In this document: positions 1,510-5,307 of the stretch, piece after piece
Numbering within the stretch: the stretch's first letter is position 1
Layout of the letters: each line of letters begins with the position of its first letter
Source of the DNA: Niallia alba
Lineage (GTDB): Bacteria; Bacillota; Bacilli; Bacillales; Cytobacillaceae
DNA length: 64,000 nucleotides
Direction: 5' to 3'
Assembly: GCF_012933555.1 (NCBI RefSeq)
Contig: NZ_JABBPK010000001.1
Location: forward strand, 350,001-414,000
Made by a program: the position numbers and the translations under genes
The notes under the pieces: generated by a model
Told to the model about the DNA's origin: nothing
The model's database searches: none
Seen by the model: the letters and a program-made list of their open reading frames with translations, nothing else

Positions 1510-1538
1510 TTGAAATTGGAAAGATAGAGGACTATAAT
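1510..1538 (+). promoter_or_regulatory. Sigma-A type promoter for the T-box transcript
   Basis: TTGAAA at 1510-1515 and a perfect TATAAT at 1533-1538 with a 17-nt spacer, ending just before the T-box leader. This places the transcript start near 1545. Confidence 0.7.
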
Positions 1539-1545
1539 AAAACAT

Positions 1546-1793
1546 AATTTCATCGAGCGAACATGTAGATCAGAAGGAGTATCCTAAAAAACTTTTTCAA
1601 AAGAGAGCAGTCGGCAGCTGAAAAGATTGTGTTGAAGTCTTAGGAGAAGACATCTGTGAGTGTTACTTTGAACGTTGTATAACTAACTAGTAGAAGTAAC
1701 CGGCCGTCACCGTTATGATACAAGTGGTTTTTTTAAAAGAACAATTTGGGTGGTACCGCGGATAATCCGTCCCTTTTATAGGGGCGGATTTTT
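1546..1793 (+). promoter_or_regulatory. T-box riboswitch leader
   Basis: A tRNA-sensing leader that reads through an intrinsic terminator when an uncharged tRNA binds. The hallmark T-box TGGGTGGTACCGCG lies at 1747-1760. The terminator pairs 1764-1773 (AATCCGTCCC) with 1781-1790 (GGGGCGGATT) and is followed by a T run. The AGTAGAAGTAACCGG segment near 1690 fits the stem I/stem II region. The best-placed candidate specifier triplet is GAC (Asp) at 1649-1651, just before the CATCTGTGAG segment, but the specifier loop was not folded and an AAC (Asn) reading is not excluded. It controls the downstream aspartyl-tRNA synthetase. Confidence 0.85.
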
Positions 1794-1829
1794 GTTGTTT
1801 TTTTGCATAAATTTAAGGAGGTGAGTACC

Positions 1830-1955
1830 GTGGATGACGATGATGATAACGATATGAATCAAGAGAATTTACTAACTTTAGGAGGAACAACGATATGGAA
1901 TTTTCAAAAAGGGTACTCATTTCTGAGTGTGAGCAACATATTGGTAAAGAAGTAA
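1830..1955 (+). CDS. Asp/Asn-rich leader mini-ORF overlapping the synthetase gene
   Basis: A 41-codon reading frame starting at GTG 1830 behind a near-perfect AAGGAGGTGAG ribosome binding site (8-nt spacing). It opens with codons for V-D-D-D-D-D-N-D-M-N-Q-E-N, so six Asp and one Asn fall within the first eight codons. It runs 61 nt into the synthetase gene in another frame and covers that gene's GGAGG site and start. This layout, after the T-box terminator and before an Asp/Asn-charging enzyme, suggests a leader peptide whose ribosome would slow when Asp- or Asn-tRNA is scarce. The peptide has no recognisable domain. The coding claim rests on the RBS, codon bias and context only; a chance ORF remains possible. 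Confidence 0.5.
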   Translation: MDDDDDNDMNQENLLTLGGTTIWNFQKGYSFLSVSNILVKK

Positions 1956-3190
1956 TATTAAAGGGCTGGGTGAAGAAAATTCGCCAACTAGGAAAGGTTG
2001 GCTTCTTGTTATTGAGAGATCGTACTGGAACAGTACAATGTGTTTTAGAGCAGGAGCAAAATCAGTTGAAAATAGAAACAGAAAGTGTAGTTCGGGTGAC
2101 TGGAGTTCTTGTAAAAACGGATAAAACAGCAAATGGAGTAGAACTGCAAGTAAACGAATTAATCGTACTAGCTGAAGCGGATCCTTTGCCATTTGAAATT
2201 AATAAGAAAAAAGTAAATGCAGGGTTAGACCACTTATTAAATCATCGAGTTTTATCTTTAAGACACGAGCAAATAAATGCTATTTTTACAGTCCAATCCA
2301 TGTTTGTAAAAGGTTTTGCAGAGTTCTTAACAAAGGAAGGGTTCACCCGGATTTTCACTCCTAAAATCGTTTCACAAGGAGCAGAAGGCGGGGCCAATGT
2401 TTTTACCTTTAACTACTTTGATAAAAATGCTTATTTAGCTCAATCTCCGCAATTTTATAAACAAATGATGGTTGGAGCGGGGTTTGAAAGAGTGTTTGAA
2501 ATTGCTCCTGTATATAGAGCAGAAGAACATAATTCCTCTAGACATTTAAATGAATATACCTCGCTAGATGTCGAAATGGGCTTTATTGAAAACGTCGAGG
2601 AAGTAATGGAGATGGAAAAGCAGGTTCTTCAATATACTTTTGATTATGTGAAGGAGCATTGTCAGAAACAGTTAGACATACTAAAGGTTGAAATACCAGT
2701 GATTAACGATATTCCCCAAATGACATTAGCAGAGGCACAGCAACTATTAAAGAAGAAGTATCAAAAGGATTCCCCAGAAGGAGATTTAAATACAGAAGGG
2801 GAAAAGTGCATTGGAAACTATATAAAGGAAAAGTACGGAAGTGATTTTGTTTTTATAACCAACTATCCGAGAACAACTAGACCGATGTATACAATGCCAA
2901 ATAAGGAGAATCCGGTGTTAACTGATTCATTTGACCTTTTATATAAAGGAAGTGAAATTACCTCAGGCGGACAGAGAATTCATCGACAAGCAGAGCTGAT
3001 AGCATCTTTTAAAGAAAAGGGACTAAACCCAGATGAGTTTAAGGCATATATCGATTCTTTTGCATATGCAATTCCACCACATGGAGGGTTTGGAATTGGC
3101 TTAGAACGAATTATCATGAAGTTTCTAAACCTAGGAAATATTCGGGAAGCAAGCGCGTTTCCGAGAGATTGCGACAGGATTATTCCATAA
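1895..3190 (+). CDS. aspS2: Archaeal-type aspartate-tRNA(Asn/Asp) ligase (AspS2)
   Basis: A class II aminoacyl-tRNA synthetase of 431 residues that activates aspartate and loads it onto tRNA. An N-terminal OB-fold (residues 1-100, containing GFLLLRDRTGTVQCV) precedes the catalytic core. Class II motif 2 is the YRAEEHNSSRHLNE segment near residue 210, motif 3 is GFGIGLER near residue 400, and the C-terminus FPRDCDRIIP is the AspRS2 type rather than the AsnRS type. Archaeal-type AspRS enzymes are often non-discriminating and make Asp-tRNA(Asn) for the GatCAB amidotransferase; which applies here cannot be read by eye. The start at 1895 has GGAGG 9 nt upstream. Regulated by the T-box and possibly by the overlapping mini-ORF. 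Confidence 0.88.
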   Translation: MEFSKRVLISECEQHIGKEVILKGWVKKIRQLGKVGFLLLRDRTGTVQCVLEQEQNQLKIETESVVRVTGVLVKTDKTANGVELQVNELIVLAEADPLPFEINKKKVNAGLDHLLNHRVLSLRHEQINAIFTVQSMFVKGFAEFLTKEGFTRIFTPKIVSQGAEGGANVFTFNYFDKNAYLAQSPQFYKQMMVGAGFERVFEIAPVYRAEEHNSSRHLNEYTSLDVEMGFIENVEEVMEMEKQVLQYTFDYVKEHCQKQLDILKVEIPVINDIPQMTLAEAQQLLKKKYQKDSPEGDLNTEGEKCIGNYIKEKYGSDFVFITNYPRTTRPMYTMPNKENPVLTDSFDLLYKGSEITSGGQRIHRQAELIASFKEKGLNPDEFKAYIDSFAYAIPPHGGFGIGLERIIMKFLNLGNIREASAFPRDCDRIIP

Positions 3191-3702: not shown

Positions 3703-5142
3703 TTAGGCTTGTCTTTGTTCTACTATCCATTGTTGTGCTAATCCAATGAGCTTTGTCCAACGTGCTGGCATTGTTGGAAGCCCCTTGAGTTCTGGATTCA
3801 CTACGGGCACTTTTCCTTCTAAGGCGGCATGCGGACGCAAAAAGTTAAAGTAGGCCGTAAATAAGGTGACGTATGAAATGGAACCATGTTCAGAGCCGAA
3901 TCCATGAGTGGAGCGATAATTGCCCTTAAAGGTGCGGTTAAGTCTCTCAATTATTTGTTTCAGTGGTCTATATTCGGTCGAAACAGGGTCCTCATTGGTT
4001 AATCCAATGACCTGCTTCACATCGAATGAAATCCCATGTTGAGCGAAGAAATGTTGGGCTAAAAGATAGATTGGATTCCCGTCTACCACAAAGGTCAGAT
4101 TTTCTGGAATCTCTTTCATCTTGATTAAGACCTCATCAATTGCTCGAATGGCTGTTGCTGTGTCTCGATTAGGCGACACCGGATACGAAAGAATAATCTT
4201 TTTCACGGCGTCAAAAAAGAAAAATAAATAATGCCATCGACCGTTTACTCTGATATACGTTTCATCACCGCAGAATTGGTCTGAAAGTTCATAGGGATAG
4301 TGATCCACATAAGGTTTAAGTAATAAAGCTACGCTATTTTCGTAGTTCAATACAGTCTGATGTGAAATCATCACTCCGTGTACGTCCTGCATAATCGCAG
4401 CTGTTTTACGGGCCGAAAGGCCATAGTTTACATGATAGGTTAGGATTAATCCTAATGTATGTGGTGATGCATAAATCTTTGATAAGTCAACGGCCGGCAG
4501 TTCTGGTGATTCCTTGGATAACGGCTGGAAATCGATATGAAACTGACGGAAAATGTATCTTAATTTAAATGCTTGAGGGTCCTTTTTGAACCTTTTCTTT
4601 TCTTTTGAAGTCATCCCATTGAGCTTCTTTTGATAATAAGAACAGTCATTGTTCTTGCACTTAAACACGTGAAAATCTTTTCTTTCTTTTATTTTCTCGA
4701 GAGTTTTGGAACAATGAGGACACTTCAGGATGGCTTCCTTAGAATAACGGTTCTTTTCACTGAAGAGCTCTGTACACACCTTGCATTGATACTGGCCTTT
4801 ATCTCCATTGTTGGCATAAAGATAATCTGATGGAGCACCACACTTTGGGCAGTTCATGGATTTAGGTACGGAAACTTTTGCATTCTTACGCCTTTGAACA
4901 GGTTTAAGTGGTTTCCCGTTCTTCTCTAGATATTCACTAAGAAGAACTCGATAATCAAGCTGTTCCAGAACTTCAATGACCGGAAGGTCGTCCACTTGAA
5001 GTTTTCGATATGGTTTATTTACTGGCTGTTCAGTAGGCTTATCAAACATACTCTTACCAATCAATAAAGTAAGCAATGTTCGAATTAGTTGTTCTTGATA
5101 GTTTATAAAAGTTAATAAATAGGTTATAATTTGAGGGTACAA
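3703..5142 (-). CDS. DDE transposase with N-terminal zinc fingers (rve/IS6-like core)
   Basis: Cuts and joins the ends of the surrounding insertion sequence. Paired CxxC motifs (CPKCGAP, CKVC, CPHCSK, CKNNDC) in the first half form zinc-ribbon DNA-binding modules. The catalytic half carries the DDE triad: D in CGDETYI, D in VVDGN, E in IIERLNR, in a context resembling IS6/rve integrases. No ATG lies at the N-terminus. TTG at 5142 has AAAGGAAGTGA upstream and is preferred; an in-frame TTG at 5187 is the alternative. The reading frame is intact, so the element may still be active. It lies between aspS2 and the SMP-30 gene. Confidence 0.8.
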   Translation of the reverse strand: MYPQIITYLLTFINYQEQLIRTLLTLLIGKSMFDKPTEQPVNKPYRKLQVDDLPVIEVLEQLDYRVLLSEYLEKNGKPLKPVQRRKNAKVSVPKSMNCPKCGAPSDYLYANNGDKGQYQCKVCTELFSEKNRYSKEAILKCPHCSKTLEKIKERKDFHVFKCKNNDCSYYQKKLNGMTSKEKKRFKKDPQAFKLRYIFRQFHIDFQPLSKESPELPAVDLSKIYASPHTLGLILTYHVNYGLSARKTAAIMQDVHGVMISHQTVLNYENSVALLLKPYVDHYPYELSDQFCGDETYIRVNGRWHYLFFFFDAVKKIILSYPVSPNRDTATAIRAIDEVLIKMKEIPENLTFVVDGNPIYLLAQHFFAQHGISFDVKQVIGLTNEDPVSTEYRPLKQIIERLNRTFKGNYRSTHGFGSEHGSISYVTLFTAYFNFLRPHAALEGKVPVVNPELKGLPTMPARWTKLIGLAQQWIVEQRQA

Positions 5143-5307
5143 ATTGTCACTTCCTTTTCTAGGTTGTTGAGAGTGTCGTAACCTCAATTATCCTTAGAAT
5201 TCAGGGGGTGGCAATTTTTTTGCTTATAAAGCCCTCTCAGATAGGATTTAATAACCTATTTACTATAAAAGTTTTGACAATACGTACATAGTTGGAGGGG
5301 GAAACAT

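Follow-up and report, generated by a model that had tools for sequence, protein, structure and literature searches.

In Niallia alba, the gene for an accessory aspartyl-tRNA synthetase (aspS2) lies behind a T-box with an Asp specifier and a short leader open reading frame (ORF) whose first codons are mainly Asp and Asn and which continues through the ribosome-binding site and start codon of aspS2. The Shine-Dalgarno sequence (SD) of this leader is predicted to pair with early codons of aspS2 in a long-range helix, here called helix H. We propose that the arrangement is a two-stage switch of a spare non-discriminating aspartyl-tRNA synthetase (AspRS), in which the T-box is followed by a leader that senses Asp- and Asn-tRNA together with helix H, and we give this reading a probability of about 0.75. 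Described here are the anatomy, conservation, specificity, coding signature and covarying helix of the element, in the window (the whole stretch of 64 kb that was analysed) and at related loci. The coordinates are collected in Table 1.

Table 1. Features of the aspS2 locus of Niallia alba, in positions of the window.
Feature	Position	Strand	Basis
Probable sigma-A promoter (TTGAAA 1510-1515, 17 nt, TATAAT 1533-1538)	1510..1538	+	Read from sequence, against the sigma-A promoter consensus
T-box leader, specifier GAC (Asp)	1557..1777	+	RF00230, 134.8 bits, E 8.2e-30
T-box terminator hairpin and U-run	to ~1804	+	Read from sequence
Leader Shine-Dalgarno AAGGAGGTGAG, near-full complement of the 16S 3' end	1815..1825	+	Read from sequence
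Helix H 5' arm, leader SD up to start codon	1817..1829	+	Folding, comparison
Leader ORF, GTG start, 41 codons, VDDDDDNDMNQENLLTLGGTTIWNFQKGYSFLSVSNILVKK	1830..1955	+	Read from sequence; 28/28 Bacilli counterparts
Asp/Asn codon run DDDDDNDMN, codons 2-10, proposed stall region	1833..1859	+	Sequence
aspS2 Shine-Dalgarno AGGAGG, within the helix H loop	1880..1885	+	Read from sequence
aspS2, accessory, predicted non-discriminating aspartyl-tRNA synthetase, 431 aa, ATG 1895-1897	1895..3190	+	NF003483, TIGR00458
Helix H 3' arm, inside aspS2 codons 6-10	1912..1924	+	Folding, comparison

The initial annotation of the window had described a T-box, an excellent SD and a GTG-started ORF of 41 codons, with six Asp codons and one Asn codon among the first eight, that overlaps the SD and start of an Asp-charging enzyme, and each of these elements was found again. 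The T-box lies above the RF00230 cut-off (134.8 vs 93 bits), and its specifier, as determined from the model alignment and by comparison with the relatives, is cognate to the downstream aspS2. The leader peptide opens VDDDDDNDMN; the count of six Asp and one Asn includes the GTG among the eight codons, and Asn comes again at codon 10. Calculated duplex energies in the window are -18.0 kcal/mol for the leader SD vs -10.2 kcal/mol for the aspS2 SD, and the two ORFs overlap by 61 nt in different frames. Over both strands of the window, a single site has an SD and start followed by at least five D/N codons in nine, and this is the leader; at the level of seven in nine, five mononucleotide-shuffled windows contained no site. 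An Rfam scan of positions 1775-2000 at E-values up to 1 returned no known element. Downstream of aspS2, on the minus strand, lies a transposase-like ORF (3703-5187) with similarity to IS6, IS66 and IS3, all below cut-off, and to a zinc-ribbon model.

AspS2 passes the curated cut-offs of both aspartate--tRNA(Asn) ligase models, NF003483 (603.6 bits, cut-off 353) and TIGR00458 (451.4 bits, cut-off 368.4), and stays below those of the AsnRS and bacterial AspRS models. By model match it is a predicted non-discriminating AspRS. The AsnRS of the same genome also passes NF003483 (374.3 vs 353) and fails TIGR00458 (330.9 vs 368.4). Since the genome encodes this AsnRS and a bacterial-type AspRS besides, AspS2 is an accessory enzyme.

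Related loci were collected by protein search, which gave 28 non-redundant aspS2 loci from Bacilli (Bacillaceae-type and Paenibacillus; AspS2 52-100% identical), with uneven phylogenetic sampling. Five loci (L013, L014, L029, L126, L129) were dropped as duplicates, two that the automatic filter had missed (L016, L127) were added by inspection as their leaders are plain in the DNA, and L130 was kept despite its degenerate run NSESDDYDDD. A class-wide protein search for AspS2 brought no additions (one of 398 genomes, the own one). All 28 loci have a D/N-rich leader ORF behind an SD, partly recognized by inspection. As the initial annotation would lead one to expect, the start, the SD and the Asp/Asn run are kept in all of these leaders and third positions drift. 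Codons 2-13 comprise 178 Asp, 68 Asn and 5 Glu in a total of 336, and codon 2 is Asp or Asn at 27 of the 28 loci and Glu at the remaining one (L127). At the third position, codons 2-9 have T 140 times, C 71 times, A 6 times and G 7 times (n=224; T or C in 211), and GAT and GAC swap freely. Pairwise differences average 0.49 at the third position vs 0.26 at the first and 0.17 at the second. Among the five closest loci, all 10 pairwise codon differences were synonymous; the Lederbergia-type group had 6 synonymous and 6 nonsynonymous ones, and eight Paenibacillus-type loci had 71 and 38, respectively. The leader starts are GTG, ATG and one TTG. Even close relatives have strongly divergent DNA, in length as well as in sequence, from the terminator to the SD. 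Since the Asp and Asn residues are kept while third positions and upstream DNA drift, the pattern argues for selection on the encoded residues of the leader start. Past the run, the sequence of the peptide, its length and its stop are common only to close groups. In L088 the interval between the T-box end (1206) and the leader SD (near 1420) contains an insert that resembles a repeat and includes TGTCTAGC and GGGCACCCAGGGGCTGAT, and the same interval is enlarged in L089, where it is shorter than in L088; T-box and leader are intact in both.

The leader occurs together with a T-box throughout these Bacilli. A T-box was recognized by sequence motif at 28 of 28 loci, with the leader start 68-259 nt downstream of the motif, and by the RF00230 model in 19 of 20 further loci scanned (all except L074). 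A specifier was readable at 24 of the 28 loci, 19 by pattern and 5 by model alignment, and was GAC every time. Beyond this set, the leader is absent from 63 of 64 other aspS2 loci, which are mostly clostridial and often have a T-box; the 64 include L074, which has neither leader nor T-box and comes from a Lactobacillales metagenome-assembled genome (MAG). The T-box motif was present in 44 of them; the specifier pattern was AAC at 23 loci and GAC at 11, two loci showed two patterns, and at 8 none was read. Five loci (L041, L060, L076, L077, L084) have two T-box antiterminator motifs in tandem upstream of aspS2. Adjacent T-box pairs are also found in the N. alba genome outside the window (G000:C1:2825341-2825866 and 1270240-1270739), upstream of genes that we guess from their translations to be trpE and thrS, and a Guanidine-I riboswitch lies near a Paenibacillus aspS2 locus (L018, 5676-5780, minus strand). 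The sole leader among the 64 is that of L055, a Symbiobacterium MAG: it is D/N-rich, lies at 448-510 in frame with aspS2 behind a GAC T-box, has no convincing helix H, and is possibly an older or a transferred form.

A leader sequence model of 46 positions, built from 27 loci, was searched over 193 genomes of the family. It gave 42-52 bits just upstream of 12 aspS2 genes and no match above 29.6 bits elsewhere in these genomes; the 12 positives are themselves in the model, and the informative part of the search is the absence elsewhere. Some match at E-values up to 0.1 was seen in 182 of the 193 genomes, and those below 30 bits among the matches listed, with stricter filters in force, were mostly partial and mainly a GAT run without an SD. 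The N. alba genome has at least 27 T-box matches, 24 of them above the cut-off (150 of 311 candidates scored). At the other 26 T-boxes among the matches listed no cognate leader was found when SD-led ORFs were inspected as far as the first large ORF, and the asnS and aspS loci of this genome had no D/N-rich SD-led starts.

In none of the 28 Bacilli loci does the leader stop before the aspS2 start. The two ORFs overlap out of frame at 24 loci, where the leader stop lies at +17 to +194 relative to the aspS2 start, and are in frame at four (L009, L089, L093, L094); all three frame relations are present. Even L089 and L088, whose AspS2 proteins are 89% and 90% identical to that of the window, differ in leader frame. 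Shuffled segments lack an in-frame stop before aspS2 in only 21-70% of cases per locus; multiplied over the 28 rows, which are related to one another, the chance of no stop is 4.5e-13, and with eleven representatives it is roughly 2e-5. An aspS2 SD of its own is recognizable at every Bacilli locus except L021, where it is weak. The leader SD binds better than this SD in 26 of 28 loci (means -18.1 vs -10.3 kcal/mol), and the two are about equal in L097 and L098. Given the strong leader SD and the lack of a stop before aspS2, ribosomes translating the leader have to pass over the ribosome-binding site of aspS2. The last counted Asp/Asn codon is 21-65 nt upstream of the aspS2 start.

Neither the in-frame leaders nor helix H had been part of the initial annotation. 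Folding of positions 1800-1960 (z of the whole fold -2.39) predicts a long-range helix between the leader SD and start and aspS2 codons 6-10, with the SD and start codon of aspS2 in its loop. The arms were compared in 29 rows, i.e., the 28 Bacilli loci and L055. Native arms pair with a mean of -20.0 kcal/mol, and arms swapped between rows with -14.8 kcal/mol; as the arms of relatives are alike, only 10 of the 29 rows have their own 3' arm as the best partner. When the start of aspS2 was recoded at random with synonymous codons, pairing as good as the native one was reached in at most 5% of trials at 27 of 29 loci (exceptions L021 and L055), and the codon choice of aspS2 thus appears to be tuned to helix H. 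In a scan over 620 nt, the segment that pairs best with the leader SD starts at 0 to +40 of aspS2 in 25 of 29 rows, the exceptions being L010 and L021 (both just before +1), L016 and L055. The 3' arm lies between +6 and +52 of aspS2 over the 28 Bacilli rows, at about +25 to +52 in most Paenibacillus-type rows and L095-L098 and at +6 to +34 in the others, and its distance to the start is therefore not fixed.

For covariation, 16 Bacillaceae-type rows were aligned on anchors that are independent of the pairing, namely GGTGA in the SD and the Leu codon of an R-x-L motif. Ten consecutive pairs of helix H are formed in 15-16 of the 16 rows, and two-sided changes occur at six pairs, four in this core and two flanking it. 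Sliding the register lowers the pairing from 0.82 to 0.31-0.45. When the 3' arms were dealt among the rows the pairing was still 0.73 (maximum of 1000 shuffles 0.79, native 0.82), because the arms resemble each other. In a count restricted to eight pairs, 100% of 128 cells are paired vs at most 55% in slid registers, and the covariation score of 0.372, vs at most 0.167 in slid registers, is reached by 0 of 500 shuffles. Two-sided changes are seen at only two of these eight pairs, a number that 151 of 500 shuffles also reach, and the number of pair types is not above that of the shuffles (224 of 500 reach it). Taken over the alignment, helix H appears to be conserved and covarying.

The effect of a stalled ribosome was calculated by constrained folding of the 29 rows with an assumed footprint of 31 nt and no shuffled control. 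The mean cost of opening the aspS2 site is 12.0 kcal/mol for the free RNA and 8.5, 8.3, 8.0 and 9.3 kcal/mol with a ribosome at codons 2, 4, 6 and 8, respectively, so that the model on average yields the sign expected for release of aspS2 by a stalled leader ribosome. A ribosome at codon 2 lowers the cost by more than 1 kcal/mol in 22 rows. The other seven (L008, L019, L022, L055, L092, L095, L097) show no gain above 1 kcal/mol, and the calculated cost in L092 rises by 5.3 kcal/mol. In the window itself the gain is almost gone with the ribosome at codon 8 (11.8 vs 12.9 kcal/mol free). In the opposite direction, opening the leader site is calculated to cost 17.1 kcal/mol on average, and 10.7 kcal/mol once a ribosome occupies +10 to +45 of aspS2.

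The proposed switch would work as follows. In a first stage, the GAC T-box would let RNA polymerase pass beyond the terminator only with uncharged tRNA-Asp. In a second stage, the read-through mRNA would load ribosomes first at the very strong leader site. With Asp-tRNA (and Asn-tRNA) plentiful, these ribosomes would traverse the aspS2 site, so that aspS2 is poorly translated, and helix H would close between leader ribosomes or whenever the region is free, which would also keep aspS2 low. With uncharged Asp and Asn tRNAs, a ribosome would wait on leader codons 2-10, over or adjoining the 5' arm of helix H. It would thereby stop new initiation on the leader and hold the helix open, so that the SD and start of aspS2 become accessible and AspS2 is made. 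A translation-level sensor layered on the T-box had already been suggested in the initial annotation. Conservation and the confinement of strong matches to aspS2 speak for it, and the geometry, the RNA structure and the identity of the gene agree on a sensor of Asp/Asn-tRNA that acts on translation; its function, including the stalling, the dependence of stalling on charging and the direction in which aspS2 responds, is what we infer. The main difficulty is posed by the loci with in-frame leaders (4 of 28, and L055), at which run-through would give an N-extended AspRS rather than a simple block.

These in-frame loci are also what speaks for taking the stretch as an ancient acidic extension of the AspS2 N-terminus, or as one joined to it by frameshifting. 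We consider this very improbable, given that the other 24 Bacilli leaders are out of frame, that all three frames occur and differ between such close relatives as L088 and L089, and that aspS2 has its own recognizable SD nearly everywhere. Still more improbable is a leader peptide that acts as a functional small protein; its conserved acidic N-terminus speaks for this, but beyond the run neither sequence nor length nor stop position (+17 to +194) extends past close groups. The chief rival, though an unlikely one, is ribosome destabilization by the acidic run (IRD, MgtL-like), where a poly-Asp nascent chain would cause pausing or drop-off and the leader would sense Mg2+, an ABC-F factor or the general state of elongation, not tRNA charging. 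IRD is relieved by EttA-type ABC-F factors. The early acidic run in the window and the other Bacilli leaders, with Asp, Asn or in one case Glu at codon 2, fits it. According to the available text of PMC11282234, ribosomes of E. coli do pause or drop off at acidic repeats among the first residues, an effect that MgtL exploits, but in the same account the EttA effect is reduced when one acidic residue is changed to Asn or Gln and abolished when both are. The leaders are poor in Glu (5 of 336 codons vs 178 Asp) and rich in neutral Asn (68 of 336), which speaks against IRD, and Asp/Asn charging is what the identity of the target and the GAC specifier of the T-box indicate.

It is also conceivable that no charging signal is read at all behind the T-box, and that the leader and helix H merely set a low, buffered output of aspS2 by occlusion or mutual exclusion: translation of aspS2 would open the leader SD, leader traffic would lower aspS2, and all sensing would fall to the T-box. 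The strong leader SD, the obligatory overlap and the calculated fall in leader-site opening cost with a ribosome on aspS2 are all consistent with this. However, it leaves unexplained why the Asp/Asn identity is kept amid free synonymous change, and we regard it as quite unlikely. The two-stage switch with an Asp/Asn-tRNA sensor is the reading we prefer.

More tentatively, and at somewhat less than even odds, the element may be a toggle of two overlapping ORFs that reads two tRNAs. The aspS2 coding sequence would serve as the anti-Shine-Dalgarno of its own leader, ribosomes that run short of Asp or Asn at the first leader codons would flip the toggle, and together with the GAC T-box this would make an AND-type lock. 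If so, uncharged tRNA-Asp would be needed for the transcript and Asp/Asn starvation for the protein, and the lock would guard a potentially mischarging synthetase. A plausible reason for placing aspS2 under a T-box and a leader is that its enzyme, if non-discriminating, would charge tRNA-Asn with Asp; a cell with a housekeeping AspRS and an AsnRS would then gain by silencing the spare enzyme unless Asp/Asn charging fails. The pairing of T-box and leader is conserved in front of this synthetase across Bacillaceae-type and Paenibacillus genomes, and surveys of T-boxes can miss a second sensor that lies between terminator and gene.

The initial annotation had stated that no example of a T-box paired with such a leader was established. 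This does not stand, as the anti-TRAP operon of B. subtilis, on which Chen and Yanofsky reportedly worked in papers of 2003 and 2004, is one. It is to our knowledge the only T-box/leader peptide pairing known, and it controls a regulator. The leader peptide RtpLP ends just before the rtpA SD, and the terminating ribosome covers this SD. As far as the available text of the sources goes, transcription of rtpA (yczA) is under a Trp T-box and its translation under RtpLP with three Trp codons (PMC2311275), and complete translation of RtpLP prevents synthesis of RtpA (PMC2311275; also PMC11255114, PMC4027176). The aspS2 element likewise has a T-box and then a leader ORF with codons of the T-box amino acid (in the window six Asp in codons 2-8), and differs in that Asn codons are used besides Asp, that the target is a synthetase and not a TRAP inhibitor, that the codon run begins at codon 2 and that it is spread over several genera. 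With the end of RtpLP placed as above, a further difference is that the aspS2 leader runs through the SD and start of its target in 28 of 28 loci. The covarying helix of leader SD with target codons may be another difference.

Other leaders share single features with the aspS2 element, as judged from the available parts of their descriptions. The actinobacterial LEU element of leuA also combines a run of regulatory codons in a leader with RNA pairing near a Shine-Dalgarno sequence (PMC1262725), but there the leucine codons pair with the target SD, whereas in aspS2 the SD of the leader itself pairs with the target coding sequence, behind a T-box. Leaders with cognate codons before a synthetase or synthetase-like gene are known from cysS (uORFC-8-2; PMC8632094) and from the His leaders of hisS*/hisZ (PMC2965389), which are described as acting via a transcription terminator. 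In the same survey, leader peptides at hisS paralogues of bacilli replace T-boxes (PMC2965389), unlike at aspS2, where T-box and leader coexist. Acidic residues early in the peptide are shared with MgtL-type IRD leaders; MgtL has EPDP and Rho-dependent termination (PMC11282234), in contrast to the aspS2 leader with its Asp and Asn, hardly any Glu and its overlap with the target. Among the open-licence papers searched we found no account of this aspS2 leader. The aspS2 element is a variant of control by T-box plus leader peptide, with Asp and Asn codons, an overlap with the target and helix H. Its RNA layout, in which the leader SD would be paired with codons of the target, can be tested with a few reporter mutants.
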